Below, in pieces: positions 8,581 to 26,477 of a stretch of 64,000 nt of DNA (the first letter of the stretch is position 1; every line of letters begins with the position of its first letter). Made by a program: the position numbers and the translations under genes. This DNA is from Bacteroidota bacterium (GTDB taxonomy: Bacteria > Bacteroidota > Ignavibacteria > UBA10030 > SZUA-254). Location: assembly GCA_020056225.1 (NCBI GenBank), contig JAGVIE010000030.1, positions 1-64,000 of the forward strand. Reading direction: 5' to 3'. The notes under the pieces are model-generated. The model made no database searches. It was not told the origin of the DNA and saw only the letters and a program-made list of their open reading frames with translations.

Positions 8581-9110
8581 CCCATACACAATGCTTAGTG
8601 TCCATAAAAATATATTTAATCTGTTAGGATGATTAACAGACTATTTTATCTGAAAATCATTAGAACGTTTTAATCGATATGGGCATACGGTTCACTCTTT
8701 CTACCAAGTTCGTCGTTCTTAACTAATTCAAATAGTTTGCATGTAATGTGCAATACTAATTCTGTTGTAGTTTTTCTGGTAGCTTACGATTATTTGGGTG
8801 AATATGCTCGGCATTAATAATATTACTCTAACAAAACGTTATACTTCTCCGTGGGGTATGTTTGTAAGCATTTCTATAATTGATACCGAAAGAAAAAATA
8901 ATGCGATCCGGGAAAAAAGCTCCATCGCAGCAATCCCCAAGACTTTTCTGAGTCATTTCTATCAGATTCCTCTTAATTTCAATCTTCATACAATCGCTAA
9001 TACTCCCGTTGTTTTACATTCACCAAAAGAAAGCTCTAGTTTTAAATCCAAGATAATACTCCGTTCCAATTTGAAAAGATATCATACATCTATTGTATAA
9101 AGGGCATACT

Positions 9111-9794
9111 ATGGCTGCAACGTCACATATACCATTTTCCATGTCACACACAGAGGCTGAGCTCCGGCAAATATTTCTAGAACAAGTAAAACAAATTCCA
9201 TCGGGTGAACGAATCAAGCGTTGCATTCAATGCGGATCATGCACAGGCTCTTGCCCCGTAAGTTATGCAATGGATATTTCCCCCCGCGAGTTAATAGCCT
9301 TGTTCCGCGCCGGTGAAATGGAAACAATTATGAAAAGCCGTACTATCTGGATATGCGCGTCTTGTTATGTTTGCACAACGCGTTGTCCATCGGGAATCAA
9401 AATTACAGACATAATGTATGCTTTAAAACGGACAGCAATGGAAAAAAAATATGAATCCAAAGCACCGCAAGTACAGATTTTGGCAAACTTGTTTATAGAG
9501 AACCTGATGGCATACGGACGCCTCCACGAGGGAACACTGATCAGAAAATATTATATGAAGATGGATTTAAAAAAATTATTTGGAATGATTCCCCTTGCCA
9601 GGAAGATGTATAAAACAAAGCGAATCGCACTTTTCCCTAAGAAGATCAAAGCACATGAGGCTTTATCGCGTATAATTAAAAAGGCAAACGAAATAGAAGT
9701 GCGGCATTTACCCGAACCGATAGAATATTCGCCTGAATATGTCGGTTATAAGGCAGTAGGAGAATTAGAACTCGAATCAAAGAAAGGGAATTAA
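9111..9794 (+). CDS. hdrC: Heterodisulfide reductase subunit C-like Fe-S protein
   Basis: CIQCGSCTGSCP and CASCYVCTTRCP 4Fe-4S motifs; adjacent to hdrB; start at MAATSH. Confidence 0.88.
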   Translation: MAATSHIPFSMSHTEAELRQIFLEQVKQIPSGERIKRCIQCGSCTGSCPVSYAMDISPRELIALFRAGEMETIMKSRTIWICASCYVCTTRCPSGIKITDIMYALKRTAMEKKYESKAPQVQILANLFIENLMAYGRLHEGTLIRKYYMKMDLKKLFGMIPLARKMYKTKRIALFPKKIKAHEALSRIIKKANEIEVRHLPEPIEYSPEYVGYKAVGELELESKKGN

Positions 9795-9796
9795 CC

Positions 9797-10669
9797 TTGA
9801 AATACGCATACTATCCCGGATGCAGTCTCGAAAAAACTCAACGGGGCTACGATGAATCGGTCAGAGAAGTCTTCAAAGCGCTCAATCAGGAATTAATTGA
9901 AATCGATGATTGGAATTGCTGCGGAGCAACTGTATATATGTCTGTGAAAGAAACTGTATCGCTTGCCGTATCCTCCCGTAATCTCGCGCTGGCACAAAAT
10001 ATGGGATACGATATCGTAGCACCTTGCAGTTCATGTTTTACGGTACTCTCGAAAACAAATCGCATATTAAATCAAATTCCCGAGATGCATCATGATGTGA
10101 ATGAAGCATTGTCGGAAGCTGGGCTAAACTACAGCGGCAATACCAAGGTAAGGCATCCGCTCGACATATTAATGAACGATGTCGGCATCGAAACGATTCA
10201 GAAGAAGATGAAAAAGAACTTAGGCGGTTTGAAGATCGCGCCATATTACGGATGCCAGATAGTGCGTCCCGATAAAACCTTTGATGATCATGAAAACCCC
10301 GTATTGCTGGATAAGATGTTTAAAAAATGCGGCGCCGAGGTAGTTTATTTTCCGATGAAAGTCAGATGCTGCGGCGGTATGTTGATGACGACATTCGAGG
10401 AAACGGCGTTAAAGCTTAACAAAGAATTACTGGCTTGCGCGGAAGCGCATGGCGCCGACGTTATCGTTACTACATGTCCGCTCTGCCACTTCAATTTAGA
10501 AGCGTATCAAAATAAAATTAACAATATCTATAATACAAATTTCAACGTACCAATTCTTTATTTTACACAACTCTTGGGGATCGTTCTAGGTCTCCCTGAA
10601 AAAAATATTGGATTAGATTCGGTGTTTGTGCCTGTGGGGAAAAAAATCTCCTCGCTTATAATGGCATGA
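9797..10669 (+). CDS. hdrB: Heterodisulfide reductase subunit B-like protein with two CCG domains
   Basis: NCCGA...CSSC and RCCGG...CPLC motifs, both complete. Confidence 0.92.
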   Translation: MKYAYYPGCSLEKTQRGYDESVREVFKALNQELIEIDDWNCCGATVYMSVKETVSLAVSSRNLALAQNMGYDIVAPCSSCFTVLSKTNRILNQIPEMHHDVNEALSEAGLNYSGNTKVRHPLDILMNDVGIETIQKKMKKNLGGLKIAPYYGCQIVRPDKTFDDHENPVLLDKMFKKCGAEVVYFPMKVRCCGGMLMTTFEETALKLNKELLACAEAHGADVIVTTCPLCHFNLEAYQNKINNIYNTNFNVPILYFTQLLGIVLGLPEKNIGLDSVFVPVGKKISSLIMA

Positions 10670-10771: not shown

Positions 10772-12049
10772 ATGGCTTCGTTAAAAGAAAAATTAGCCCA
10801 AATAATTCCCGGGCTTCGCGAGGAAGTAAAAACCCTCGTGAAAGAACAGGGTGCAAAAGTAATATCAGAAGTAACAATTGAACAATTGTACGGAGGACAA
10901 CGCGGAGTAAAATGTTTGGTCTGTGATACTTCCGAGGTTCCGCCCGATAAAGGATTAATCATACGCGAAAAACCTATCGGAGAATTGCGAGATAAATTAC
11001 CCGAAGAAATATTCTATCTTCTTTGCACCGGAGAGCTTCCCGACGCGGCGGCATTGAAATCTCTTCAGGCGGATTTAGAAACAAGACAAGATGTTCCCCA
11101 GTATGTTTGGGACGTAATGAAAGCAATGCCGAAAGATTCACATCCGATGGTAATGTTCAACACTGCAATACTCGTATTGGAAAAAGAGTCGGTATTTCGG
11201 AAAAAATACAACGAAGGAATGAAAAAGGATATCTATTGGGAGCCGATGTTGGAAGACGCTCTCAATCTTATCGCAAAACTTCCGAATATCGCGGCAGGAA
11301 TTTACCGGATGCGGTTTGGCAAAGGTGAACGCATTGTGCCCAAGAAAGGTATCGATTGGTCGGCTAATTATGTCCACATGCTCGGGCTTGCTGATCCGAA
11401 CGGTGAATTTACAAAGTTGATGCAACTCTATTTAACTTTGCACAGCGACCATGAAAGCGGAAACGTAAGCGCAGCAACAACCGCAACGGTTTCTTCCGCT
11501 CTGTCTGATTTATACTATGCAGTCTCTGCAGGTTTGAACGGACTTGCCGGTCCATTGCACGGACTTGCCAATCAAGAATGCCTCGGATGGGTTTTAGAAA
11601 CGAATAAAAAATTCGGCGGCAAACCTACACCTGAACAATTAAGAAGTTATGCTCAGGAAACCTTGAGCGCCGGAAGAGTAGTCCCGGGATACGGACATGC
11701 AGTATTAAGAATAACCGATCCGCGGTTCGACGCTTTCCTCGCTTTCGGCAAAAAGTATTGCTCGAACGATCCGGTATTCCAAACCGTTTCTAACGTATTC
11801 GATGTTGTGCCCGATGTTTTAAAACAGGTACAGAAGATAAAAGATCCGTGGCCCAATGTTGATGCCGGTTCAGGAGCATTATTGTACCATTACGGAATGA
11901 CTGAATTCGATTATTACACGGTATTGTTCAGCGTTTCACGCGCACTCGGCGTTTCGGCGCAAGCCATCATTGCCCGCGCCATGGGGTATCCGATTGTAAG
12001 ACCAAAATCGGTTACGACTAAATGGGTAAAAGCGCAAGCTGTTAAGTAA
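10772..12049 (+). CDS. Citrate synthase, eukaryotic-like type
   Basis: LYGGQRGVKCLVCDTSEVPPDKGLIIR, GLNGLAGPLHGLANQE, VPGYGHAVLR. Confidence 0.92.
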   Translation: MASLKEKLAQIIPGLREEVKTLVKEQGAKVISEVTIEQLYGGQRGVKCLVCDTSEVPPDKGLIIREKPIGELRDKLPEEIFYLLCTGELPDAAALKSLQADLETRQDVPQYVWDVMKAMPKDSHPMVMFNTAILVLEKESVFRKKYNEGMKKDIYWEPMLEDALNLIAKLPNIAAGIYRMRFGKGERIVPKKGIDWSANYVHMLGLADPNGEFTKLMQLYLTLHSDHESGNVSAATTATVSSALSDLYYAVSAGLNGLAGPLHGLANQECLGWVLETNKKFGGKPTPEQLRSYAQETLSAGRVVPGYGHAVLRITDPRFDAFLAFGKKYCSNDPVFQTVSNVFDVVPDVLKQVQKIKDPWPNVDAGSGALLYHYGMTEFDYYTVLFSVSRALGVSAQAIIARAMGYPIVRPKSVTTKWVKAQAVK

Positions 12050-12060
12050 TAGTATTTTTG

Positions 12061-12102
12061 CGATGCGGAGTTTGAAGAATTAAAATCTCTTACTCCGCAT
12101 CG
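12061..12102. terminator. Intercistronic hairpin after citrate synthase (terminator or processing/stability element)
   Basis: CGATGCGGAGT ... ACTCCGCATCG, perfect 11-bp stem, 20-nt loop, weak U-tract. Confidence 0.5.
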
Positions 12103-12138
12103 ATAATTAAATCTGAAAAAAAAGAAAGGAAAATTATC

Positions 12139-13089
12139 ATGAAAATTGCAGTTATAGGCGGTGGTAATATTGGCGGCGTTCTGATACAAGAAATTGTGAG
12201 ACGCCGGTTAGCGCGTTACGTTAGTTTGGTAGATGTGAAAGGACCCGATCTATCCAAAGGTAAATGTCTCGACATCGCAGAAGGCGCACCAATTATTTCA
12301 TCGGATGTGGTGGTTGAAGGAGCGAAAGAGTACGACGTTATCGCGGGTGCGGATTTGGTCATTAACACTGCTGGCGTGCCGCGTGCCGCCCGACCTGATG
12401 GCACTATCCCCACGCGGGAAGAATTGCTGGCAACCAATTTAAAGATCACCGATGCGGTGAGCGAGGGCATATCTAAATTCTGCCCGAAGGCGATTGTCAT
12501 CTCTATCGCCAATCCATTGGATGCTATTGTTTATCGTCTGAATATGAATTTAAAACCGTCGCGTGAAAGACTGATGGGTATGGCAGGCGTACTGGATTCT
12601 TCGCGCTACAGATATTTCGTAGCCAAAGAGGCGGGCGTAAGCCTAGAGAATGTGGAAGCCATAGTCCTTGGCGGCCACGGTGACGATATGCTGCCGATCC
12701 GTTCCGCATGTCGTATTGCCGGAATGCCGGTGGAAAAATTCGTTACTGCTGAAAAGTTAGACGCTATCGAAGCTCGTACGCGGCAGGCTGGCGGCGAGGT
12801 GGTTAAGTTGTTGGGCAGCGGCTCGGCTTTTGTTTCCCCGGCATGGGCGGCTTTGGAAATGGCTGAAGCGATTATTTATGATAAGAAAAAAATCATGCCG
12901 GTTTGCACACAACTAAAAGGTGAGTACGGCGTTGATGGTTTATTTATCGGAGTGCCGGTTGTTTTAGGCGCCAAGGGCATTGAAAAAATCATCGTTATGG
13001 ATTTGACTGAGAAGGAAAAAGAAGCCTTCGCCAAGTCCATCGCGTCGGTAAAGAAATCGAGCGATGAAGTTCTGTCCGTGGCGAAGTAA
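12139..13089 (+). CDS. Malate/lactate dehydrogenase-family protein with extended active-site loop
   Basis: GGGNIGG Rossmann motif; VPRAARPDGTIPTREELL; NPLD; GGHGDDM. Confidence 0.85.
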   Translation: MKIAVIGGGNIGGVLIQEIVRRRLARYVSLVDVKGPDLSKGKCLDIAEGAPIISSDVVVEGAKEYDVIAGADLVINTAGVPRAARPDGTIPTREELLATNLKITDAVSEGISKFCPKAIVISIANPLDAIVYRLNMNLKPSRERLMGMAGVLDSSRYRYFVAKEAGVSLENVEAIVLGGHGDDMLPIRSACRIAGMPVEKFVTAEKLDAIEARTRQAGGEVVKLLGSGSAFVSPAWAALEMAEAIIYDKKKIMPVCTQLKGEYGVDGLFIGVPVVLGAKGIEKIIVMDLTEKEKEAFAKSIASVKKSSDEVLSVAK

Positions 13090-13173
13090 ATCACTCAATC
13101 GCAATGCTAGCGGCGAATATAAAGTAAGAACAAACTGATCAAGAGAATTAATTTGTGTGAGCGGAATTTTTAA

Positions 13174-14106
13174 ATGAAGATATCAGTCATTGGCGGTGGA
13201 AATGTTGGTGCTACTTGCGCTCTTATGATTGTTCAGCAAAAGTTAGGCGACGTTGTTTTAGTCGATATTGTTGAAGGAATGCCTCAGGGTAAAGCCCTGG
13301 ATGTGGCTGAAGCGGCGCCGGTTAATCGGTATGAAAGCCATATACTCGGGACAAATAAATACGAAGATATTGCAGGAGCGGATATTGTAGTGGTAACAGC
13401 CGGACTGCCCCGTAAACCCGGTATGACTCGAATGGACTTGCTTCAGAAGAATGCGGAAATTGTAACGCATGCCGCAGAGCATATAAAAAAACTCGCGCCG
13501 AAGTCGATCATAGTTATGATAACAAATCCACTCGATGTAATGACTTATGTGGCATGGAAAGTTAGCGGATTTCCAAAACAGAGAGTTGTTGGAATGGCTG
13601 GCGTTCTGGATTCAACGCGGTACCGCCATTTCATTTCTCTCGAAATGAAAATCGCTATGGAAGATATCCATGCTATGGTGCTTGGCGGACACGGTGACAC
13701 AATGGTACCGCTTCCGCGTTATTCCACGGTATCGGGAATTCCGCTTACACAGTTATTGTCAACGGAAACTATTGCGCGGCTTGTCGATCGGACGCGAAAA
13801 GGCGGAACTGAGATCGTGAATTTGCTGAAAACCGGCAGTGCTTATTATGCGCCTGCGGCTTCAGCGGTTCAAATGGTAGAAGCAATAGTACGCGATTCCA
13901 GACGATTGCTTCCAGCTTCAGCATACCTTGAAGGTGAATTTGGGCTTAAGGAAGTTTTTGCCGGCGTGCCTGTAATCATAGGTAAGAATGGCGTAGAGAA
14001 AATCGTCGAAATCGAGCTGACCGTAGATGAAAAAGAAGCACTGCGGAAATCAGCCGCCGATGTTTCCGAAGGTATAGCCGATTGGAAGAAGATTACTGGT
14101 AACTAA
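13174..14106 (+). CDS. mdh: Malate dehydrogenase
   Basis: GGGNVGA; LPRKPGMTRMDLL substrate loop; NPLDVMTY; GGHGDTMVP. Confidence 0.93.
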   Translation: MKISVIGGGNVGATCALMIVQQKLGDVVLVDIVEGMPQGKALDVAEAAPVNRYESHILGTNKYEDIAGADIVVVTAGLPRKPGMTRMDLLQKNAEIVTHAAEHIKKLAPKSIIVMITNPLDVMTYVAWKVSGFPKQRVVGMAGVLDSTRYRHFISLEMKIAMEDIHAMVLGGHGDTMVPLPRYSTVSGIPLTQLLSTETIARLVDRTRKGGTEIVNLLKTGSAYYAPAASAVQMVEAIVRDSRRLLPASAYLEGEFGLKEVFAGVPVIIGKNGVEKIVEIELTVDEKEALRKSAADVSEGIADWKKITGN

Positions 14107-14190: not shown

Positions 14191-15048
14191 ATGGAAAAAA
14201 ACGGTCAGGTCCGTATCGGAGTTTACATATGCCATTGCGGCGTCAATATTTCTGCCACAGTGAACGTCGCATCGGTGCGCGACTTCATTGCGAAACAACC
14301 CAATGTCGTGATTGCCCGCGATTATAAATTCATGTGTTCCGACCCGGGACAGAATTTAATTAAGGATGACATAAAAAATCTTGGCGTAAATCGGGTTGTT
14401 GTTGCGGCATGCTCTCCGCTGATGCATGAACTTACATTTCGGTTAGCCGCTGAATCGGGCGGGTTGAACCGCTACCTTGTGCAGATTGCCAATATCCGCG
14501 AGCATTGTTCGTGGATACACGATAATCGTGACGAAGCTACCGGAAAAGCCACTGCTCTTGTTAATGCCGCCGCCAAGCGTGTTGCACTGCACCAACCGTT
14601 AGAGATTACAAAATCGCCGATGAATAAAAACACCCTTATAGTTGGCGGAGGTATCGCCGGCATTCAAGCCGCGCTCGAGATAGCAAATGCTGGATATCAT
14701 GTATATCTCGTAGAGCGCGAGCCAACGATCGGCGGACGAATGGGACAATTTGATAAAACATTTCCGACACTTGACTGCGCCGCCTGTATTTTAACCCCGA
14801 AGATGGTCTCTGTCGGTCATCGCAAAGATATTACGCTTCTTTCTTACTCAGAAGTACAGGATGTTTCAGGTTACCTCGGCAACTTTAAAATAAAAGTGAA
14901 GAAAAAAGCTAGATATGTTGATACGGAGAAGTGCACAGGATGCGGACAATGTTGGAGTAATTGCCCGGGAACACGCATCCCCGCGGGCAGAGCTATCTAT
15001 ATAGATAATAAACTTGTGAATCAGATATCAACAAAACCACAGGAATAA
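14191..15048 (+). CDS. HdrA N-terminal half: CxCG domain, FAD-binding Rossmann and first 4Fe-4S, ends before the HdrA C-terminal region
   Basis: YICHCGVNIS; IVGGGIAGIQAALEIANAGYHVYLVEREPTIGGRM; LDCAACILTPKM; CTGCGQCWSNCP; stop right after RAIYI. Confidence 0.88.
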   Translation: MEKNGQVRIGVYICHCGVNISATVNVASVRDFIAKQPNVVIARDYKFMCSDPGQNLIKDDIKNLGVNRVVVAACSPLMHELTFRLAAESGGLNRYLVQIANIREHCSWIHDNRDEATGKATALVNAAAKRVALHQPLEITKSPMNKNTLIVGGGIAGIQAALEIANAGYHVYLVEREPTIGGRMGQFDKTFPTLDCAACILTPKMVSVGHRKDITLLSYSEVQDVSGYLGNFKIKVKKKARYVDTEKCTGCGQCWSNCPGTRIPAGRAIYIDNKLVNQISTKPQE

Positions 15049-15064
15049 TACAATTTTGATAACT

Positions 15065-15430
15065 ATGACGCTGTCGGAAATAGTAGAATCTCTCTCTTGT
15101 GAAGTGTTTACAGGTAATGATCAATTGCATATGAGAGTTGAGTTTGGATGTGCATCCGATTTGATGAGCGATGTACTGGCATTTTCTCAGGCAGGTGCGC
15201 TTCTTCTGACAGGATTAGTGAATAATCAAACAGTTCAAACTGCCTACATCGCGGAAATAAAAGCTATTGTATTCGTAAGAGGAAAGAAACCGAGTCGGGA
15301 AGTAATTTCTCTGGCACAAGATAAAAAAATTCCACTTCTCGGAACACCGTACTCGATGTATGAGGCATGTGGATTGCTCTATAAAAAAGGTCTCGTTCCA
15401 ACGATGGTATGTGTTCCATTCAAAGCATAA
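15065..15430 (+). CDS. DRTGG-domain protein
   Basis: Similar to the 17191 ORF (GCASDLMSDVLAFS vs GCASDMLSNVIAYS; both with an IVxVxGxxP/I.LL... pattern). Confidence 0.7.
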   Translation: MTLSEIVESLSCEVFTGNDQLHMRVEFGCASDLMSDVLAFSQAGALLLTGLVNNQTVQTAYIAEIKAIVFVRGKKPSREVISLAQDKKIPLLGTPYSMYEACGLLYKKGLVPTMVCVPFKA

Positions 15431-15431
15431 G

Positions 15432-15857
15432 ATGGATAAAGCGTTTTCACAAATATATAAAATACAAGGTGGAAATATTTACAATGCCGGAAAGGCATCA
15501 ACTGAGATAAAATCAATTTTAAAACAACTTGGTATTAATTCATTTATTATCCGTCGAGTTGCAATTGCTGCATATGAAGCAGAAATGAATGTGGTTATGT
15601 ATGCGAAACACGCAACTATGACGTTCGAAGTAACACCGAAGCAAATCAACATAATAGTTGAGGATGAAGGACCTGGTATTGCGGATGTTTCGCTGGCGAT
15701 GCAAGAAGGATATTCAACAGCGACACCGGAGATGCGAGAGATGGGCTTCGGTGCCGGAATGGGTTTGCCGAACATCAAAAGAAATTCAGATTCTTTTAAG
15801 ATAGAATCTGTCGTCGGTAAAGGTATAAAATTGGAAATTAAAATAAACATAAACTAA
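15432..15857 (+). CDS. Anti-sigma-factor-like (RsbW/SpoIIAB-type) HATPase protein
   Basis: AAYEAEMNVVMYA N-box; VEDEGPGIAD; GMGLPNIKR. Confidence 0.8.
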   Translation: MDKAFSQIYKIQGGNIYNAGKASTEIKSILKQLGINSFIIRRVAIAAYEAEMNVVMYAKHATMTFEVTPKQINIIVEDEGPGIADVSLAMQEGYSTATPEMREMGFGAGMGLPNIKRNSDSFKIESVVGKGIKLEIKININ

Positions 15858-15860
15858 CTC

Positions 15861-17177
15861 ATGCGGAATGACTTTCGTTCCATAAGGATTGACACAGAAA
15901 AATGCGAAGGGCGCATGGCATGTATGCGGGTATGCCCAACACAGGCTATTCGCGTTCGGGGCAGTAAAGCAACGCTTCTTAACGACCGCTGCATAGATTG
16001 CGGCGAGTGCGTCCGTGTTTGTCCTAATCATGCCATTATTCCTCAAACAAGTTCATTTAGCGATTTTTCTAAATTCAAATACACTATCGCACTTCCCTCG
16101 CCTGTTTTTTATTCTCAGTTTGGGAAAGATGTTTCTCCCTCAGTTATCCTTAATGCCCTAAAAAAAATTGGTTTCGATGATGCCTATGATGTTGCTTGCG
16201 CCTCAGAATCGGTAAGTATTGCAATTCAAGAGTATCTCGATTCAAACAAAAGCCCGCGGCCACTGATTGCACCGTTCTGTCCTGCTATTGTCCGGCTTGT
16301 TCAAGTACGTTATCCGAATCTATTGGATAATCTGATTCCTATTGAATCGCCAATGGAAATTGCAGCCCGTGAAGCGAAACATCTCAAAATGAAAGAATTA
16401 GGACTGAAAGAAAAAGAAATTGGCTGCATCTATATTACACCTTGTCCGGCGAAAACCATTTCAATTAAATATCCACCCAGGAAGAAACATTCATTCTTGG
16501 ATGGCACAATTTCAATATCTGAAATTTATCCCTCGTTGGTACAGGTTTTATCTAAATCTAACGGTGATACTATAAAAACAGATATTCGTGGGCTTGGCTT
16601 GGGCTGGCCCATAGTTGGCGGACAAGTTGCTTGCCTAAAAGCCGAAGACTGTATCTCTATCGCCGGTTTGAACGACGTTACAAGAATATTTGAAGAAATT
16701 GAAAATGGCAAACTCAAAGACATACAATATATAGAATGCCATTCTTGTCCAACAGCATGTGTTGGCGGACAACTCACGGTTGAAAATCCTTACATTGCTC
16801 GTGGTCGGGTGCTTCGTGTCGTGAAAAAGTTTGGCAGCGTGCCTTGTCAGGACAGGGATAAAATTCGTGAGCTTTATCAGAAGAATTTCTTCTCATTGCT
16901 TGGGAAAATTTCTCCTAGTCCTGTGGCTCCACTCGATGAAGATATCTCCAGGGCAATCCAAAAAATGCGTCAGAAACAGGAAATATACGACCTGCTGCCG
17001 AAAATCGATTGTGGGGCTTGTGGTGCGCCTTCATGTCAGACATTCGCTGAAGATTCTGTGAAAGATGGAACCTCTATGGGTGAGTGTATTTTTATTTCTA
17101 TGAAAAAATTTGAAACATTAACCGGAAATTTACATGATACCGTCTTAAAACATAGTCGTAAAGTTCGAACAACGTGA
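15861..17177 (+). CDS. Sensory-type [FeFe]-hydrogenase-like protein with N-terminal ferredoxin and C-terminal Fe-S domain
   Basis: H-cluster-like Cys motifs APFCPAIV, TPCPAK, ECHSCPTACVGGQ; C-term CGACGAPSCQTFAED...C. Confidence 0.82.
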   Translation: MRNDFRSIRIDTEKCEGRMACMRVCPTQAIRVRGSKATLLNDRCIDCGECVRVCPNHAIIPQTSSFSDFSKFKYTIALPSPVFYSQFGKDVSPSVILNALKKIGFDDAYDVACASESVSIAIQEYLDSNKSPRPLIAPFCPAIVRLVQVRYPNLLDNLIPIESPMEIAAREAKHLKMKELGLKEKEIGCIYITPCPAKTISIKYPPRKKHSFLDGTISISEIYPSLVQVLSKSNGDTIKTDIRGLGLGWPIVGGQVACLKAEDCISIAGLNDVTRIFEEIENGKLKDIQYIECHSCPTACVGGQLTVENPYIARGRVLRVVKKFGSVPCQDRDKIRELYQKNFFSLLGKISPSPVAPLDEDISRAIQKMRQKQEIYDLLPKIDCGACGAPSCQTFAEDSVKDGTSMGECIFISMKKFETLTGNLHDTVLKHSRKVRTT

Positions 17178-17190
17178 GGTAATGTGAATT

Positions 17191-17532
17191 ATGAAATTAA
17201 AAGAAATCGTTAAAAAGTTAAAATTATCGGTACGATGCGGTGAGAACAACTTAGACAGAGATGTAACCGGTGGCTGTGCCAGTGATATGCTTAGTAACGT
17301 AATAGCATACAGTAAGAAAGGTGATGTGTGGACAACAATCCAAATTCATGCGAACATCGTTGCTGTGGCGGTGTTAAAAGAATTAGCCGCAATAATCATC
17401 GTGCAAGGCAGAGAACCGGCTGATGATACGATTCAGAAAGCAAAAGAAGAAAACATTCCACTACTTGTTAGCAAACTTTCTGCCTATGAAGTAGTCGGTA
17501 AAATGTACGAGTTAGGTGTTGGAAGAAATTGA
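17191..17532 (+). CDS. DRTGG-domain protein (second copy)
   Basis: GCASDMLSNVIAYSKKGDVWTTIQIHANIVAVAVLKELAAIIIVQGREP. Confidence 0.7.
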   Translation: MKLKEIVKKLKLSVRCGENNLDRDVTGGCASDMLSNVIAYSKKGDVWTTIQIHANIVAVAVLKELAAIIIVQGREPADDTIQKAKEENIPLLVSKLSAYEVVGKMYELGVGRN

Positions 17533-17568: not shown

Positions 17569-18321
17569 ATGTTAAAATCATTTAGGGCAGATTTGCACGT
17601 TCATACGTGCCTCTCTCCCTGCGGCGATCTGAAAATGACGCCGCAAAAGATTGTTCAACAAGCGGTTTATAAAAAACTCGATATCATAGCAATCTGCGAC
17701 CATAATTCTGTCGAGAATATTTCCGCGGTAACAAAAGTTGCAGAAGGAAAAAATATCACAATAATACCCGGAATGGAAATTTGCACTCAAGAAGAAATTC
17801 ATATGCTTGCGCTCTTTGAAAATATTGAAGCCGCTTTTGAGATGCAAGCAAAAGTGTACGATAAACTTCAAGGTAAAAATAACCCTGAAGTTTTTGGAAT
17901 ACAAGTGATTGGAAATGAATTCGACGAAGTACTCGGTTTCAATGAAAGACTGTTAATCGGTGCTGTTGATATGTCGATAGAAGAAGTTGTCAATGGAATC
18001 CACAAACTTAATGGACTTGCAATTGCGTCGCATATTGACAGGGAAAGTTACAGCGTCATTGGGCAATTAGGTTTTATTCCAGAAGCATTGCGATTCGATG
18101 CGTTGGAGATATCACCCAACATAAGTATTGAAGAAGCACAAAAAAGGTTCAGCGAATACCACACATATGCATTTATTCAAAACTCTGATGCACATGTTAT
18201 CGAAGATATCGGAAAGTGCGTTACCGGATATCAAATCGCAGAGCCGACAATCATCGAAATTAAGATGGCACTAAAGAATGAAAATAATCGAGGAATCCAA
18301 AATCTAAAATCTACAATCTAA
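17569..18321 (+). CDS. PHP-domain metal-dependent phosphoesterase
   Basis: ADLHVHTCLSPCGD; ICDHNSVEN; IPGMEI; NSDAH. Confidence 0.9.
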   Translation: MLKSFRADLHVHTCLSPCGDLKMTPQKIVQQAVYKKLDIIAICDHNSVENISAVTKVAEGKNITIIPGMEICTQEEIHMLALFENIEAAFEMQAKVYDKLQGKNNPEVFGIQVIGNEFDEVLGFNERLLIGAVDMSIEEVVNGIHKLNGLAIASHIDRESYSVIGQLGFIPEALRFDALEISPNISIEEAQKRFSEYHTYAFIQNSDAHVIEDIGKCVTGYQIAEPTIIEIKMALKNENNRGIQNLKSTI

Positions 18322-18329
18322 AATCCATT

Positions 18330-18869
18330 TTGGAAGAGTTATCGTTACATATTTTAGATATAGCAGAAAACTCGGTAACCGCTGGTGCGAAAAATATCGA
18401 GATTAAAATTACGGAAAATAAAGAGACAGATTTGTTAAAAATTGAAATTATCGATGATGGAAAAGGAATGAGCGAAGAAGAGGTGAATAAAGCCCTTGAT
18501 CCATTTTTCACAAGCCGGACAACACGAAGAGTAGGTTTGGGATTACCAATACTTCATCAAGCCGCAAAGTTAGCTAATGGCAAAATGGATATTCGATCCA
18601 TTGTTGGTAAAGGAACACATGTGAGCGCAACTTTTCAGCTTAGCCACATCGACTTACAACCATTAGGAAACATGGCTGAAACAATAACCGCACTCATTGC
18701 AAGCAACCCCAATATTGATGTCAAATATGAATATAAAAGAAATAAAAACAAATTCGTCTTTAATACAAGAGAGATAAAAGAAAAATTAGCCGACGTGAAT
18801 ATTAATACAAGCGGTATATTATCATTTGTTAAACAATTTATTACTGAAAACACAGAGAGTTTATCATAA
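18330..18869 (+). CDS. HATPase-domain protein
   Basis: DIAENSVTAGA; IIDDGKGM; TTRRVGLGLPI. Confidence 0.8.
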   Translation: MEELSLHILDIAENSVTAGAKNIEIKITENKETDLLKIEIIDDGKGMSEEEVNKALDPFFTSRTTRRVGLGLPILHQAAKLANGKMDIRSIVGKGTHVSATFQLSHIDLQPLGNMAETITALIASNPNIDVKYEYKRNKNKFVFNTREIKEKLADVNINTSGILSFVKQFITENTESLS

Positions 18870-18888
18870 GCAATTAAGGAGAACGTTC

Positions 18889-19356
18889 ATGGAATATAAT
18901 GTTCAACAAAAATCCGATGAGATTGTCAATCGTTGGGGTGCCCGACCCGAGAATATCATTGAGATGATGCACGATATTCAAAACGAGTTAAATTATTTGC
19001 CCAAAGATCTGTTATATGAGGTTTCGAAAAAGGCAAACGTTCCGATCAGTAAAATATTCAATATTGCAACATTCTACAATGCCTTCAGTTTAAAACCTAA
19101 AGGAAGACATCGAGTTCATGTATGTATGGGAACGCCGTGCCATGCCCTTGGAGCCCCCCGCGTTGTTAGCGCGATAGAGCGGGAACTCGGGATTAAATGT
19201 GGTGACACAACTCCGGATATGAAATTCAGTCTAGACATCTGTGGATGTGTTGGAACTTGCGGTCTTGCACCAGTCGTCATTGTCGGAGACGACCTCTTCG
19301 GTCCGATAAAAGTCAATGGTGTCCCGCGATTACTCAAGAAATACGAATCTAAATAA
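18889..19356 (+). CDS. NuoE/HydC-like thioredoxin-fold 2Fe-2S subunit
   Basis: CMGTPCHALGAPRV...DICGCVGTCGLAPVV; strong RBS upstream. Confidence 0.92.
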   Translation: MEYNVQQKSDEIVNRWGARPENIIEMMHDIQNELNYLPKDLLYEVSKKANVPISKIFNIATFYNAFSLKPKGRHRVHVCMGTPCHALGAPRVVSAIERELGIKCGDTTPDMKFSLDICGCVGTCGLAPVVIVGDDLFGPIKVNGVPRLLKKYESK

Positions 19357-19373: not shown

Positions 19374-19757
19374 ATGCCACGGTTAAAAATTGATGATTTA
19401 GACAAAATCGCCGATCAGCAGCGGAGGAAAATGACCGTCAGAGAAGGCGGAGGTAAAGCAAAAATTACAGTTCACATGGGAACTTGCGGTATAGCAGCAG
19501 GTGCTCGGAATATCATGAGTACATTTTTAAAAGAAATCGAAGCACACAATGCTCATGACGTAATTCTTACCACTTCTGCATGTGCCGGTTTATGCAGCCG
19601 CGAACCTATGGCAACTGTTGAACTTGCTGGACAGGCGCCTGTAAAATATGTAGACCTAACAGAAGAAAAAGCAAAAAAGATTTTCGCAAGTCACGTCCTT
19701 CAGGGGAAATTAGTGCAGGATTATGCACTCTCTATTGGTAGCGAGCGAATACAATAA
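19374..19757 (+). CDS. Thioredoxin-like 2Fe-2S ferredoxin
   Basis: VHMGTCGIAAGAR...TSACAGLCSREPM. Confidence 0.88.
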   Translation: MPRLKIDDLDKIADQQRRKMTVREGGGKAKITVHMGTCGIAAGARNIMSTFLKEIEAHNAHDVILTTSACAGLCSREPMATVELAGQAPVKYVDLTEEKAKKIFASHVLQGKLVQDYALSIGSERIQ

Positions 19758-19778: not shown

Positions 19779-21611
19779 ATGAAACAATATAGATTACAAA
19801 TAATGGTTTGCGCAGGGACAGGTTGTGTCTCTAACCATTCATTTGAATTAAAAGAAGCTCTCGATAAAGAGATAATAAAACACAATCTTCAAAATGAGAC
19901 CGAGGTTGTGTACACTGGCTGCAATGGATTTTGTGGCGCAGGACCAATTGTGGTTGTCCAACCGGATGGAATATTTTATCAACTTCTAAAAGTTGCGGAT
20001 ATCCCCCACCTTGTTGAAGAACATCTTCTTAAAGGGAGGCCCGTGAAGAAGTATCTCTACACGCCACCCACTGAGAAAACGCCGATACCAAAAATGGCTG
20101 ATATTCCGTTCTTTTCCGACCAGACACTTATTGCGTTACGCAATAGAGGTATGATTGATCCAGAAAAGATTGATGACTACATCGCCCGAGGTGGATACAA
20201 GGCGCTTGCAAAAGTGCTTACTTCGATGAAACCGGATGAAATTTTGTCGGAAATTAAAGCCTCAGGGTTACGCGGTCGGGGCGGCGGCGGATTTCCGACG
20301 GGCGTGAAATGGGAAACTTGTAAGAAAGCCCACGGTGATACAAAATATGTTATATGTAATGCTGACGAAGGCGACCCGGGCGCGTTCATGGACCGCAGTA
20401 TTATAGAGGGTGATCCACATGCTGTGATCGAAGGAATGATCATTGGTGCGTACGCCATCGAGAAGGTTCATCAAGGGTACATTTACGTGCGCATGGAATA
20501 TCCTCTTGCCATAAAGCGGTTCCAGATTGCCATTCAGCAGGCACGAGAATATGGTTTATTGGGAAAGAATATTTTCGATAAAGGATTTGATTTCGATCTT
20601 GACGTGCGACGTGGAGCGGGTGCGTTCGTTTGTGGTGAATCAACTGCTCTGATGGCTTCGGTCGAAGGCAAACCCGGTGAACCAAGAGCGAAATATATTC
20701 ACACAGTCGAAAAAGGATTATGGGATTGTCCAACGTGCTTGAACAACGTGGAAACCTGGGTAAATGTGCCACAAATTATTCTAAAAGGTTCGAAATGGTT
20801 TTCAAGCATTGGGACCGGTGATGTTTCAATTGATCCTTGGGGTGGGAGCAAGGGGACAAAAGTGTTTTCCTTAGCTGGTAAAGTTAACAATACTGGTCTA
20901 GTAGAAGTTCCAATGGGAATTCCTCTTGGAGATGTCGTCTATAAAATTGGTGGCGGAATTCGCGAAGGGAAAAAATTTAAAGCAGTCCAAACTGGTGGAC
21001 CATCAGGTGGATTTATCCCTGAAAGCATGCTCAATATCCCCGTTGATTATGAAGAACTAACGAAAGTCGGTTCGATGATGGGTTCTGGCGGCATGGTTGT
21101 ATGCGATGAAGAAAACTGCATGGTCGATATGGCAAAATACTTCTTGAAGTATACTCAGGAAGAATCTTGCGGCAAATGTATTCCCTGCCGTGAGGGAACA
21201 AAGAGAATGTTAGACATCCTTGAAAGAATTACCATAGGCAAAGGGACTGAAGAAGATCTATTATTACTCGAAGAACTTTCGAATATGATTGTTGAATCTT
21301 CACTTTGTGCGCTTGGTGGCTCGGCACCCAATCCAGTGCTAACAACTTTAAAGTACTTCCGAGAGGAATACGAGACTCATATAAAGAATAAAAAATGTCC
21401 GGCACGCATATGTCGGCAATTGCTATCATATACAGTGGATGAAAAAATTTGTTTAGAAGTTGGACATGGATGTGACGTTTGCAAGAAAAATTGTGCTGAT
21501 GGTGCAATTATTGGTGAGCGTAAGAAAATCCATTACATCGATCCAATGAAATGTGGCAAATGCGGCGCATGTTATGATGTCTGCAATTTCAATGCAATCA
21601 TTGTTGAATAA
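19779..21611 (+). CDS. NuoF/HydB-like NADH-binding flavoprotein subunit (FMN, 4Fe-4S, C-terminal 2x4Fe-4S)
   Basis: N-term 2Fe-2S; GLRGRGGGGFPTGVKWE; NADEGDPGAFMDR; CGKCIPCREGT; two C-terminal ferredoxin motifs. Confidence 0.95.
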   Translation: MKQYRLQIMVCAGTGCVSNHSFELKEALDKEIIKHNLQNETEVVYTGCNGFCGAGPIVVVQPDGIFYQLLKVADIPHLVEEHLLKGRPVKKYLYTPPTEKTPIPKMADIPFFSDQTLIALRNRGMIDPEKIDDYIARGGYKALAKVLTSMKPDEILSEIKASGLRGRGGGGFPTGVKWETCKKAHGDTKYVICNADEGDPGAFMDRSIIEGDPHAVIEGMIIGAYAIEKVHQGYIYVRMEYPLAIKRFQIAIQQAREYGLLGKNIFDKGFDFDLDVRRGAGAFVCGESTALMASVEGKPGEPRAKYIHTVEKGLWDCPTCLNNVETWVNVPQIILKGSKWFSSIGTGDVSIDPWGGSKGTKVFSLAGKVNNTGLVEVPMGIPLGDVVYKIGGGIREGKKFKAVQTGGPSGGFIPESMLNIPVDYEELTKVGSMMGSGGMVVCDEENCMVDMAKYFLKYTQEESCGKCIPCREGTKRMLDILERITIGKGTEEDLLLLEELSNMIVESSLCALGGSAPNPVLTTLKYFREEYETHIKNKKCPARICRQLLSYTVDEKICLEVGHGCDVCKKNCADGAIIGERKKIHYIDPMKCGKCGACYDVCNFNAIIVE

Positions 21612-21626
21612 GAATCAGGAGTTAGC

Positions 21627-23390
21627 ATGGTCACAGTAAAAATAGATGAAATAGAAGTTCAGGTACAGGAAGACACCCCAATACTTAAGGCAGCAGAAAA
21701 GGCAGGTATCTGGATACCCACAATGTGTCATTCAGAGTTGTTCGAGCCGTACGGTGTTTGCCGTCTTTGCAGCGTGGAAGTTATCCGAGGCAAACGAAGT
21801 CGTATCGTGACAGCGTGTAACTATCCTGTGCGCGAAGGATTAACCATTCAAACTAACTCTGCAAAGATCCAGTGGATCCGAAAAATAATAATGGAGCTGA
21901 TGCTTTCTCGCTGGCCCAATGTCAAAGTGGTCAAAGAAACTGCTGAAAAACTGGGAATAAAAGAATCAAGATTTCCCAGTCTCGAGCGCGATGAAGCAGA
22001 AGATGCTTGCATACTTTGCGGTCGGTGCGTCAATGTTTGCCGCGAAGTAGTACAAGCCGAAATACTCGCATTTGCATATCGCGGAATTAAACGTGAAGTG
22101 GTTTTACCATTCGGTGAGCAGTCAGATAAATGCATCGTTTGTGGCGCCTGTGCATTGGTTTGCCCAACTGGCCACATCAAAATGGTTATCGAAGATTATA
22201 AAGGTAAGAAACCCGAGTTTACGCTTGGACCAAAAACATCGATTTATGTTCCTACGATGCAGGGTATACCACGTGTGCCTGTTATCGATGCTGAGTCATG
22301 TATTCATTTTAAAACAGGTGGCTGTGAAACCTGTGCTAAAGTTTGTGAACCTCATGCCATCAATTACGACATGAAGGAAGAAGTTGTCGAAATCGACGCA
22401 GGTCAGATATTATTAACAACCGGTTATGATATATTCGATGGCTCGAAGATGGCACAGTTCGGTTACGGAATGTTGGATAATGTATACAGTTCACTCGAAT
22501 TTGAATTGATGCTCAACTCAACAGGTCCTACAGGCGGTAAAGTTCAGCTAAAGAACGGAAAAGCGCCTCGTGCAGTCGGCATCCTTCATTGCATCGGCTC
22601 CAGAGATCACGAGCATCATCCGTATTGTTCACGTGTGTGCTGTATGTACGCCCTTAAATTTGCGCACCTTGTACACGACAGAACCGAAGCGGCAATCTAC
22701 CAATTCTACATTGATATGCGGGCGTTTGGTAAAGGATATGAAGAATTCTACAGCCGCCTGCTCGATGAAGGCATAACGATGATTCGCGGTAAAGCCGCCG
22801 AAGTAGTTGAATCGACATGGAGTAAGAATGGAGATGGATCATTGCTGATCAGGTGTGAAGACACACTTATTGGAAAATTCCGCGAGGTACCGGTCGATAT
22901 GGTGATTCTTTGTAATGCAATGGAACCACAAAAAGATGTGGATGCAATCAGAAGAGTCTTCTCCATCAGCAAAAGTCCAGATGGATTTTTCTTAGAGCGG
23001 CATCCCAAGCTCGATCCGACTTCGACGATGAGCGATGGAATCTACATCGCAGGATGTGCGCAAGGACCGAAAGATATTCCCGACACAGTCGCACAGGCAA
23101 GTTCTGCCGCGGCTCATATCCTCTCGTATATATCAAAAGGTGAAGTGGAAATCGATCCTGTTCGTGCCTGGATTGATGAAAAGTATTGTTCTGGTTGTCG
23201 TATTTGCAACAGCTTGTGTCCATATACTGCCATAGACTTCATCGAAGATAAAAAGATTTCAATAGTGAACGACGTTCTCTGTAAGGGATGTGGTACTTGC
23301 GTTGCTGCCTGTCCAGCATCCGCTATCACTGGCAAAGGCTTCTCTGACGCACAAATTCTTGCAGAGCTTGAAGGATTATTGGAAATATAG
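21627..23390 (+). CDS. Chimeric NuoG/HydA-like N-terminus fused to the HdrA C-terminal half
   Basis: N-term 2Fe-2S (CHSELFEPYGVCRLCSVEV) and two 4Fe-4S; then SIYVPTMQGIPRVPVIDAESC...CETCAKVCEPHAI, HCIGSRD..YCSRVCCMYALK, IYIAGCAQGPKDIPDTVAQASSAAA, CSGCRICNSLCP, CKGCGTCVAACP. Confidence 0.9.
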   Translation: MVTVKIDEIEVQVQEDTPILKAAEKAGIWIPTMCHSELFEPYGVCRLCSVEVIRGKRSRIVTACNYPVREGLTIQTNSAKIQWIRKIIMELMLSRWPNVKVVKETAEKLGIKESRFPSLERDEAEDACILCGRCVNVCREVVQAEILAFAYRGIKREVVLPFGEQSDKCIVCGACALVCPTGHIKMVIEDYKGKKPEFTLGPKTSIYVPTMQGIPRVPVIDAESCIHFKTGGCETCAKVCEPHAINYDMKEEVVEIDAGQILLTTGYDIFDGSKMAQFGYGMLDNVYSSLEFELMLNSTGPTGGKVQLKNGKAPRAVGILHCIGSRDHEHHPYCSRVCCMYALKFAHLVHDRTEAAIYQFYIDMRAFGKGYEEFYSRLLDEGITMIRGKAAEVVESTWSKNGDGSLLIRCEDTLIGKFREVPVDMVILCNAMEPQKDVDAIRRVFSISKSPDGFFLERHPKLDPTSTMSDGIYIAGCAQGPKDIPDTVAQASSAAAHILSYISKGEVEIDPVRAWIDEKYCSGCRICNSLCPYTAIDFIEDKKISIVNDVLCKGCGTCVAACPASAITGKGFSDAQILAELEGLLEI

Positions 23391-23435: not shown

Positions 23436-23885
23436 ATGGCATTCGAACCAAGAATAGTAGCTTTTTTCTGCAATTGGTGTACATATACAGGTGCAGATCT
23501 TGCAGGCGTATCACGACTAAAATCGCCCGCAAACATTCGGATAATTCGTACAATGTGCAGCGGCCGAGTAGATCCTTCATTTATAATGAAGGCATTTGAG
23601 CTTGGTGCGGATGGTGTGCTCATTGGAGGTTGTCACCCGGGCGATTGTCACTACGCCGAAGGCAATTATAAAGCCCTTCGCCGTGTCCACTTGTTAAAAA
23701 AGATGATGCGGTCTTTCGGAATCGATGAAAAACGGCTTCGCTTAGAGTGGATTTCTGCTTCGGAAGGAGACGTATATCAACATGTGGCTACTGAATTTAC
23801 ACAAACCATTCGTTCGCTCGGACCTCTTAATTGGAAACAACACGTCGATCAAAAATCTTCAAGCGAACAAGCGGTTGTAGTTTAA
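23436..23885 (+). CDS. mvhD: MvhD-family hydrogenase iron-sulfur subunit
   Basis: FFCNWCTYTGADLAG; RTMCSGRVDPSF; GGCHPGDCHY. Confidence 0.92.
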   Translation: MAFEPRIVAFFCNWCTYTGADLAGVSRLKSPANIRIIRTMCSGRVDPSFIMKAFELGADGVLIGGCHPGDCHYAEGNYKALRRVHLLKKMMRSFGIDEKRLRLEWISASEGDVYQHVATEFTQTIRSLGPLNWKQHVDQKSSSEQAVVV

Positions 23886-23926
23886 ATATTGAATATAATA
23901 TAATCAAGAATATAAGGGAACAAAAC

Positions 23927-24898
23927 ATGGCAAAACCAAAATTAGCATTATACTGGGCAGCAAGCTGCGGCGGATGTGATGTAGCTGTTCTTGATATAGA
24001 AGTAAAAATCTTAGATGTTGCAGCGTTTTTCGATATCGTCTTTTGGCCCTGTGCAACAGACTTTAAATACAAAGATGTTGAAGCAATGCCGGACAAAAGT
24101 ATTACACTTTGTTTGTTTAATGGTTCTATCAGAAATTCTGAAAATGAAAAATTAGCAAAGTTACTTAGAGCCAAATCTGTAGTCCTTGTTGCATTTGGAT
24201 CCTGTGCTCAGGAAGGTTGCATCCCTGCATTGGCAAACCTTACTACAAAAGAAGCAATTTTTAAAACGGTTTATCTTGATACCCCATCAACACATAATCC
24301 TGATAAAATTTTCCCTCAGCCTGTTACAAAAGTTAAAGAAGGTGATTTAGAAATTCCCGTCTTTTGGGAAAAAGTAAAGTCTTTAGATCAAGTAGTTGAT
24401 GTCGATTATTATATTCCGGGATGTCCGCCGCAGTCAACACAAGTTGCAGCAGTCATCGAAGCAGTAATAGACATTTTAAAGAACGGAAAACCCCTTCCAC
24501 CAAAAGGTACAATTTTAGGTGCAGGTGATAAAACGTGTTGTGATGAATGTCCGCGTACAAGGAAAGAAAAAAAAGTAAAGCAATTCTATCGTCTCCACGA
24601 AATATTGATCAATCCAGATGAATGTTTATTGGATCAGGGTATCGTGTGTATGGGACCTGCGACCCGTAGCGGATGCGGTGCCTTATGTGTAAAAGCTAAT
24701 GTTCCGTGTCGCGGCTGCTATGGGGCTCCACCCAATGTTCATGATCAAGGTCTAAAAATGTTGAGTGCAATAAGTTCTGTTATCGATGCCCAAGAGCCTG
24801 ATGAAATTGATAAAATTATCAATACCATTGCAGATCCAACGGGAACATTTTATCGCTTTAGTATGGCACATTCGACCTTAAAGATAGCAGACTTATAA
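23927..24898 (+). CDS. [NiFe]-hydrogenase small subunit (MvhG-like)
   Basis: WAASCGGCDVAVLDI; GSCAQEGC; IPGCPPQ; C-terminal Cys clusters; adjacent to the large subunit. Confidence 0.92.
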   Translation: MAKPKLALYWAASCGGCDVAVLDIEVKILDVAAFFDIVFWPCATDFKYKDVEAMPDKSITLCLFNGSIRNSENEKLAKLLRAKSVVLVAFGSCAQEGCIPALANLTTKEAIFKTVYLDTPSTHNPDKIFPQPVTKVKEGDLEIPVFWEKVKSLDQVVDVDYYIPGCPPQSTQVAAVIEAVIDILKNGKPLPPKGTILGAGDKTCCDECPRTRKEKKVKQFYRLHEILINPDECLLDQGIVCMGPATRSGCGALCVKANVPCRGCYGAPPNVHDQGLKMLSAISSVIDAQEPDEIDKIINTIADPTGTFYRFSMAHSTLKIADL

Positions 24899-24939
24899 GA
24901 AATGATAGATTTTAATTTAATCCTTAAAGGAATTAAACC

Positions 24940-26415
24940 ATGAACGAATCGAATAAAAAGCATATTAGCATCGATCCAATAACTAGACTCGAAGGTCATG
25001 GGAAAATTGATATTTTCCTAAATAATGATGGTGAAGTTGAAAATTGTTATCTTATGATTCCTGAGCTTCGAGGTTTTGAACAATTCTGTGTTGGGCGTCC
25101 CGTTGAAGAGATGCCGAGAATTACAACACGCTTATGTGGTGTTTGTCCTGAAGCTCACCATATAGCTTCAGCCAAAGCGTGCGATGCTGTATATCATATT
25201 GAACCTCCGAGTGCAGGGAGAAAACTTCGTGAACTGCTATATAATGTTTTCTTTTCTGGAGATCACGCTCTTCACTTCTACGCGTTGGGTGGACCAGATT
25301 TCGTTGTAGGTCCTGAAGCACCTGCGGCTGAACGAAATATCCTCGGTGTTATCGCAAAAGTTGGTGTTGAAATTGGAAAAAAGGTTATTCAACATAGAGC
25401 ACATCATTCAGCGATAATGGAATTGCTGGGGGGTAAAAAAATTCACCAAGTTACTTCCTTGCCTGGTGGCGTCTCAAAGGGGCTCACAGAAGAAGAACGT
25501 AAGGGTGTTGAAGCGCGTATTGTTGAAATGGTCGAGTTCGGAAAATTCACTATAAAAGTCTTCGATGATATTGTTCTCAAGAATAAAGCGTACGTAGATC
25601 TTATTCTGAGCGATACGTATGCCATGAAAATTCATTCCATGGGATTAGTTGACGAAAAAAATAGAGTGAATTTCTACGACGGAAAAGTTCGTGTGGTCGA
25701 TTGTAACGGAAAAGAATTTGTGAAGTATTCTCCTAAAGAATATCTTGATAACATTGCTGAACATGTTGAGCCGTGGAGTTACTTAAAATTCCCATTCCTC
25801 AAGAAAATTGGATGGAAAGGATTTATAGAAGGTAACGAAGGCAGTATTTACTGGGCAACACCGCTTTCACGCCTCAACGCTGCTGACGGAATGGCAACTC
25901 CGCTTGCTCAAGCTGAATACGAAAGAATGTATAAAACACTCGGTGGTAAACCTGTCCATGCTACCCTTGCAACCCACTGGGCAAGAGTTATCGAGTTGCT
26001 GTATGCCTCAGAAAGAGCTCTGGAGCTTGTACGCGACCCAGAGATTACAAGTCCAAACATTAGAGCTATCCCGAAAGAAACACCGACAGAAGGTGTTGGT
26101 ATTATTGAGGCACCTCGCGGTACATTGACACACCACTATGTAACCGATGAGCGAGGTATTTTGACGAAAGTAAATCTAATTGTTGGTACAACGAACAACA
26201 ACGCACCGATTGCGATGTCAGTTAAGAAGGCAGCACAGGGTTTGATTAAAAAGGGAACCGTTGTATCCGATGGTATTCTAAATAAGATCGAGATGGCATT
26301 TCGGGCTTACGATCCGTGCTTTGGTTGTGCAACACATACACTTCCGGGACAGATGCCGCTTGTAGTCAACATCCGGAATAAGGACGGGGAAATTATTCAG
26401 GAACTGAAACGATAA
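24940..26415 (+). CDS. [NiFe]-hydrogenase large subunit (MvhA-like, group 3)
   Basis: RLCGVCPEAHHIAS L1 motif and DPCFGCATH L5 motif followed by a short C-terminal tail. Confidence 0.96.
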   Translation: MNESNKKHISIDPITRLEGHGKIDIFLNNDGEVENCYLMIPELRGFEQFCVGRPVEEMPRITTRLCGVCPEAHHIASAKACDAVYHIEPPSAGRKLRELLYNVFFSGDHALHFYALGGPDFVVGPEAPAAERNILGVIAKVGVEIGKKVIQHRAHHSAIMELLGGKKIHQVTSLPGGVSKGLTEEERKGVEARIVEMVEFGKFTIKVFDDIVLKNKAYVDLILSDTYAMKIHSMGLVDEKNRVNFYDGKVRVVDCNGKEFVKYSPKEYLDNIAEHVEPWSYLKFPFLKKIGWKGFIEGNEGSIYWATPLSRLNAADGMATPLAQAEYERMYKTLGGKPVHATLATHWARVIELLYASERALELVRDPEITSPNIRAIPKETPTEGVGIIEAPRGTLTHHYVTDERGILTKVNLIVGTTNNNAPIAMSVKKAAQGLIKKGTVVSDGILNKIEMAFRAYDPCFGCATHTLPGQMPLVVNIRNKDGEIIQELKR

Positions 26416-26444
26416 CAGAAACGATATAGCCATCTTAAAACTTG

Positions 26445-26477
26445 TAGAGCGGCGAACTTCGTCGCTCTATCTTTTTA
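26445..26477 (+). terminator. Rho-independent terminator after the hydrogenase large subunit
   Basis: TAGAGCGGCGA-act-TCGTCGCTCTA then TCTTTTTA. Confidence 0.8.

Follow-up and report, generated by a model that had tools for sequence, protein, structure and literature searches.

A HydS-like protein encoded in a [NiFe]-hydrogenase operon of an Ignavibacteria genome is probably an H-cluster-free iron-sulfur redox switch

Why does a [NiFe]-hydrogenase gene cluster carry a gene for a sensory-type [FeFe]-hydrogenase-like protein, and could this protein respond to hydrogen at all? The question is raised by a stretch of 64,000 nucleotides (the window) of an Ignavibacteria genome, in which the product of one such gene had been proposed to sense H2 or redox state and thereby control a [NiFe] enzyme. 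Our analysis indicates that the protein is probably an Fe-S redox switch made from a hydrogenase, because none of the three enzymes needed to make the H2-binding cofactor was found in the genome or in those of its relatives with an orthologue.

The open reading frame was confirmed (15861..17177, + strand, ATG at 15861, 438 aa), and its product was grouped with [FeFe]-hydrogenases by both phmmer and Foldseek. All best PDB matches of its AlphaFold model (mean pLDDT 92.7) were [FeFe]-hydrogenases. Pfam located the H-domain (Fe_hyd_lg_C) at residues 74-303 with 99.8 bits (cut-off 22.1), two 4Fe-4S motifs at the N-terminus and the Fe-S domain PF04060 at the C-terminus (residues 379-411, 38.9 bits), and found no match in the protein to the PAS domain that is a feature of group C (M2f). 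Two [4Fe-4S] motifs at the N-terminus, then the H-domain and, with no PAS, a C-terminal Cx2Cx4Cx16C make up the arrangement of group D (M2e), to which TamHydS of Thermoanaerobacter mathranii belongs (PMC8163306, PMC10407848, PMC13104023), but the first N-terminal motif is one Cys short. The spacing of the C-terminal motif is that given for M2e (PMC8163306), and the kinship with sensory HydS proteins that had been predicted is supported by this plan. The features of the protein and of its surroundings are collected in Table 1.

Table 1. Features of the HydS-like protein gene and its neighbourhood in the window
Feature	Position	Strand	Details and basis
HdrC-like and HdrB-like genes	9093..10669	+	PF13534/PF13183, PF02754
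N-terminal part of split HdrA	14191..15048	+	Pfam; position kept in relatives
DRTGG-domain protein 1 (cassette)	15065..15430	+	PF07085, 34 bits; beside HydS in both clades
RsbW/SpoIIAB-like ATPase, kinase fold (cassette)	15432..15857	+	PF13581; spIIAB 48 bits, under its cut-off
HydS-like protein, related to group D/M2e [FeFe]-hydrogenase, probably without an H-cluster	15861..17177	+	438 aa; Pfam, phmmer, alignment, model
N-terminal double Fe-S motif	15903..16022	+	motif 1 C15-x2-R18-x2-C21-x3-C25; motif 2 intact, C44, C47, C50, C54
L1: F139 (CpI C299 position), C140 (CpI C300 cubane ligand)	16275..16280	+	alignment
L2: C195 (CpI C355 ligand), K198 (CpI K358)	16443..16454	+	alignment
Proton-path positions of group D with the residue lost: V252 (TamHydS S249), Q255 (E252), A268 (D265)	16614..16664	+	mapped by spacing
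L3: C296-P-T-A-C300 (CpI C499, C503 ligands)	16746..16760	+	Thr-Ala replaces Gly-Gly; alignment
C-terminal [4Fe-4S] motif C384-x2-C387-x4-C392-x16-C409	17010..17087	+	PF04060; M2e spacing
DRTGG-domain protein 2	17191..17532	+	PF07085, 28.9 bits
PHP-domain phosphoesterase-like protein	17569..18321	+	PF02811, 41.7 bits
Protein with histidine-kinase-like ATPase domain, without a HisKA match	18330..18869	+	PF02518, 62.5 bits
NuoE/HydC-like subunit	18886..19356	+	profile match
2Fe-2S ferredoxin-like protein	19374..19757	+	profile match
NuoF/HydB-like subunit	19779..21611	+	TIGR01959, 476.7 bits
HydA-like N-domain fused to HdrA C-terminal part	21627..23390	+	A6 HydA residues 2-185, HdrA2 166-585
[NiFe]-hydrogenase genes (group 3c type), MvhD-, MvhG- and MvhA-like	23436..26415	+	profile matches; NiFe CxxC motifs
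Terminator-like hairpin after mvhA	26444..26470	+	12 pairs

A genome with a functional [FeFe]-hydrogenase is expected to encode HydE, HydF and HydG. The window's assembly (3.5 Mb, 100% complete) encodes none of them at the cut-offs used, and the positive control, T. maritima, scored above the cut-off in each search. HydG gave no match in the whole genome. For HydF only GTPase-domain matches were obtained, the best of which scored 88 bits (cut-off 325) and none of which reached 1e-30, and the best match for HydE reached 42.7 bits against a cut-off of 254.6. An orthologue of the HydS-like protein was present in 8 of 60 relatives, seven times at full length (68-76% identity) and once as an 87% fragment. 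HydG was above the cut-off in 0/60 relatives, including the eight with an orthologue, and the seven with a full-length orthologue (96-100% complete) also had no HydF and no HydE above the cut-off. Only one of these seven, G030, encodes a HydE-like protein just under the cut-off, an orphan radical SAM protein (G030:C74:41555-42418) of 246 bits (cut-off 254.6); this genome has neither HydF nor HydG. The original prediction had called for this search and had held that a complete genome free of HydEFG, together with a protein free of the H-cluster, would make the protein an H-cluster-free relative; the genome half of that outcome is what was obtained, in the window's genome and in the seven near-complete relatives carrying an orthologue. 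By the known route, then, the [2Fe] subsite is unavailable to the protein.

Relatives of the same order that have no HydS of the window type encode an A3-type HydABC similar to HydA1 of A. woodii, whose L1 motif TSCSPGW it shares (loci L022-L031 and L123-L125; genomes G017, G018, G022, G024, G031, G039, G044, G046, G051 and G052), and these genomes likewise had no HydG and no HydE above the cut-off. The A3-type HydA of these Ignavibacteria-order relatives was considered as a ligand-less protein and rejected. Since HydA1 in PDB 7q4v, the electron-bifurcating HydABC of A. woodii, has the same motif, TSCSPGW was not used as evidence for a lost ligand.

A scan of genome contigs for HydS loci yielded 80 loci; the search for HydG covered every one of the 80 genomes, and that for HydF covered 50 of them. 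The tree of 86 proteins was divided into clade I and clade II, 43 rows each, with a split support of 100/100. Clade I, which holds the window protein, comprises Ignavibacteria, Aminicenantes, Acidobacteria, Myxococcota and others, and 38 of its 43 rows are without HydG, while clade II consists mostly of Clostridia (the Clostridial group D), with HydG in 33/43. Within the window subclade of 14 proteins HydG was found in 0/14 genomes. In the five of 43 clade I rows that come from genomes with HydG, this enzyme may serve other hydrogenases. Fisher's exact test for clade against HydG gave a p of about 1e-9 on rows that are related by descent, and an independent-pairs test of HydG against the proton-path residues was without power, as the changes in these residues fall on a small number of deep branches. 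The link between clade and HydG is therefore to be read as an association along one deep split. In this tree, built without TamHydS, the window protein falls outside the HydG-bearing Clostridial clade, across the 100/100 branch, so that its clade appears to be sister to the Clostridial group D clade and not nested within it.

What became of the active site was assessed in the alignment. C140, C195, C296 and C300 align with the CpI cubane ligands C300, C355, C499 and C503 and are invariant in 86/86 aligned proteins, as is characteristic of group D; the H-cluster Cys regions had thus been recognised correctly. The same applies to the Phe noticed beside the L1 ligand, as the proton-transfer Cys at the CpI C299 position is replaced by F139. 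It is F in 14/14 proteins of the window subclade, and clade II has A in 31 and S in 9 of 43. T193 stands at the CpI M353 position, giving the group D combination of Ser/Thr there and no Cys at C299, and the position of K198 is K in every clade I row. The Gly-Gly of L3 is Thr-Ala in 14/14 of the window subclade; in clade II the two positions are G in 40/43 and 43/43. The larger residues F139, T298 and A299 may fill the [2Fe] pocket, as judged from the alignment.

The group D proton path runs through E252-E289-S249-D265 of TamHydS, and E252 variants of that enzyme show <0.01% H2 oxidation and little or no FTIR response to H2 (PMC10407848). TamHydS was absent from the alignment and the tree, and its residues, mapped by spacing, correspond to Q255, E292, V252 and A268, which means that three of four are lost and only E289 is kept. 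Position 255 is Q in 14/14 of the window subclade and E in 34/43 of clade II, and position 292 is E in 14/14 and 43/43, respectively. Position 252 is V/L/F in 14/14 and mostly S/A/T in clade II. Position 268 is A/G in 14/14, D in 40/43 of clade II and D in 0/43 of clade I. Retained cubane ligands in lost catalytic surroundings would be expected if only the [4Fe-4S] half of the H-cluster were bound by the protein. Outside the H-domain, position 18 of N-terminal motif 1 is C in 43/43 clade II proteins, R/H/Q in 13/14 of the window subclade and C in one. This change of the second Cys to Arg (15912-15914; His/Gln in others) resembles ferredoxins with a [3Fe-4S] cluster.

These data bear directly on whether the protein could be a true H2 sensor with a complete H-cluster. 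The four cubane ligands and K198 are conserved, TamHydS, the closest characterised relative, binds an H-cluster (PMC8163306), and the gene neighbourhood is regulatory. However, with no HydE, HydF or HydG in the window's genome or in the seven relatives with a full-length orthologue, with the proton path lost and with bulky residues at the C299 position and in the L3 loop, we regard such a sensor as very unlikely. Of the proposed "H2 or redox" sensing, the part concerning H2 at an H-cluster is not supported, and redox is the better half of the guess. That the gene is a decaying remnant without function would fit the loss of catalytic residues, but the open frame, the 68-76% identity among orthologues in several families, the invariant Fe-S ligands and the conserved C-terminal motif make this extremely unlikely.

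The gene lies in a + strand run that leads from the HdrC/HdrB-like genes and the HdrA N-terminal part through DRTGG, RsbW-like, HydS-like, DRTGG, PHP and HATPase genes to NuoE and on to MvhDGA, behind which lies the terminator-like hairpin. The MvhD/G/A-like matches and the CxxC motifs RLCGVC and DPCFGC confirm the location within a [NiFe]-hydrogenase cluster, and a regulatory neighbourhood tied to the [NiFe] enzyme, as had been suspected, is seen in the kinase/DRTGG/PHP cassette upstream of NuoEF-HydA/HdrA-MvhDGA. No match to the H-domain (Fe_hyd_lg_C, Pfam) was found in the HydA-like fusion protein; instead of a group D-type [FeFe] output module, the [NiFe] MvhDGA with HydA::HdrA lies downstream. 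The HdrA is split, its N-part encoded separately and its C-part fused to the HydA-like N-domain, and this arrangement is kept in relatives. From their translations, a citrate synthase and two malate/lactate dehydrogenase-like genes (10772-14106) belong to the same + strand run. A scan for sigma-70-like promoters found no excess over shuffles (47 found vs 46.9 expected).

The order DRTGG-RsbW-HydS-DRTGG-PHP-HATPase is common to clade I and clade II. At most clade I hydrogenase loci with enough flank, NuoE-Fd-NuoF-HydA_N::HdrA_C follows, and none of these loci has a HydA H-domain; MvhDGA comes after HdrA_C in 7/7 relatives (19-kb regions). Those clade II loci that reach a HydA have the full H-domain and in no case HdrA_C, that is, a HydABC output. 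As the cassette is largely constant and the downstream genes differ, an [FeFe] output appears to have been exchanged for a [NiFe] output, in either direction. Some genomes have clade I cassettes without an adjoining hydrogenase, near two-component genes. HydS cassettes with no hydrogenase nearby were seen at loci L060, L062, L063, L064 and L067, of which L060, L062 and L063 adjoin response-regulator or histidine-kinase genes. L060 also encodes a protein with a glycine cleavage H domain, with similar-looking proteins in L063 and L064. Close to a HydS cassette of a KSB1 genome, a histidine kinase (L069 2-958) carries an N-terminal PF04060 domain like that of the HydS C-terminus. In one genome, G043 (L126 4950-6560), DRTGG1, the RsbW-like gene, DRTGG2 and PHP are gone and HydS is directly followed by the histidine-kinase-like ATPase gene, which hints that HydS and HATPase are the core of the cassette.

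The retention of HydS in G043 despite the loss of DRTGG1, RsbW, DRTGG2 and PHP could also be expected if the protein were no regulator but carried electrons, as a subunit or side arm of the NuoEF-HdrA-Mvh complex; the protein shares an operon with this complex and has up to four Fe-S sites. Against such a role, the gene sits in the kinase/DRTGG/PHP cassette in both clades, and some clade I cassettes stand without an adjoining hydrogenase near two-component genes, so we consider it unlikely.

We favor, as the probable explanation, an H-cluster-free HydS whose remaining clusters are used to report the redox state. These clusters are most likely cubane-type clusters, namely the [4Fe-4S] that formerly anchored the [2Fe] unit, two at the N-terminus (the first one Cys short) and one at the C-terminus. 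Electrons from the ferredoxin/NADH pool, or from the adjoining bifurcating complex, would set the state of the clusters, which would be passed to the ATPase/kinase-like, DRTGG and PHP partners, through which the NuoEF-HdrA-Mvh [NiFe] operon would be tuned. That the protein senses redox, which way the signal runs and what the cassette acts on are our suppositions; support for such a redox reporter comes from the conservation of the cassette, the hydrogenase-free cassettes by two-component genes and the PF04060 histidine kinase of L069. Alternatively, the old [2Fe] cavity might be re-used in the window clade for another cofactor or ligand, e.g., a [2Fe-2S] or diiron unit built without HydEFG. 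A [2Fe-2S] has been proposed for Nar1, and re-use would turn the hydrogenase fold into a gas or redox sensor of a new kind, but we give this only a slim chance.

Nar1 also suggests another role. It is the known [FeFe]-hydrogenase relative without an H-cluster, has two [4Fe-4S] sites and has been proposed to act in trafficking (PMC12621388). The window protein could similarly serve the Fe-S-rich hydrogenase complex in Fe-S trafficking or assembly, as the adjoining operon needs many Fe-S clusters. This would leave the regulatory cassette unexplained, and it sits poorly with clade II family members in HydEFG-bearing genomes and a characterised group D enzyme that binds an H-cluster; we hold it to be quite improbable. 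By description, Nar1/IOP1/CIAO3 of eukaryotes is an H-domain relative with cubane sites kept and no [2Fe] subsite (PMC12621388). The window protein likewise keeps the cubane ligands and would probably lack the [2Fe] subsite, but it is bacterial, has an extra C-terminal Fe-S domain and is encoded in a hydrogenase operon with a putative signalling cassette.

Returning to the redox switch, its likeness to TamHydS covers the 2x[4Fe-4S], H-domain and C-terminal Cx2Cx4Cx16C, the lack of C299 with Ser/Thr at the M353 position, the conserved R and E-D residues of the N- and C-domains (R31, R33, E397 and D398 here, by spacing) and a gene upstream of a bifurcating hydrogenase. In contrast to TamHydS, the window protein comes from a genome without HydEFG, has lost E252, S249 and D265, has Phe and not a small residue at C299, Thr-Ala for Gly-Gly in L3 and one Cys less in motif 1, is tied to a [NiFe] enzyme and belongs to the sister of the Clostridial clade. 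As the proton path is largely lost and the maturases are absent, we leave it outside group D. The group C (M2f) protein TmHydS of Thermotoga maritima shares the sensory-type H-domain and a C-terminal four-Cys motif, but the window protein has no PAS domain and its genome no maturases. The NiFe-HydABCSL of Acetomicrobium mobile (PMC8880783, PMC9304861) likewise has a HydABC-type bifurcating core in which [NiFe] replaces the H-cluster output. It differs in that the HydA-like N-domain of the window is fused to the HdrA part, with MvhD and HdrBC genes alongside, and its HydS is a [NiFe] subunit, unlike the HydS-like protein studied here.

In the open-access papers searched we found no description of a HydEFG-free HydS or of a DRTGG/PHP cassette with HydS. 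Among H-cluster-free members, eukaryotic Nar1 (PMC12621388) comes closest as a precedent; for a HydABC core with a [NiFe] output, NiFe-HydABCSL (PMC9304861) does. Metagenome surveys could count such proteins as [FeFe]-hydrogenases although the genomes cannot build the H-cluster by the known route. The swap of [FeFe] and [NiFe] outputs under a constant cassette also hints at the part that acts as the control unit. The evidence for calling group C and D [FeFe]-hydrogenases H2 sensors is indirect, and recent work found the C-terminal cluster of TamHydS to be unresponsive to H2 (PMC13104023). A clade in which the HydS protein and its cassette are kept and the H-cluster machinery is lost amounts to a natural deletion of the H-cluster and makes the need of HydS for H2 testable. 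If the cassette still works in the window clade, its signalling would be independent of H2 binding at an H-cluster.
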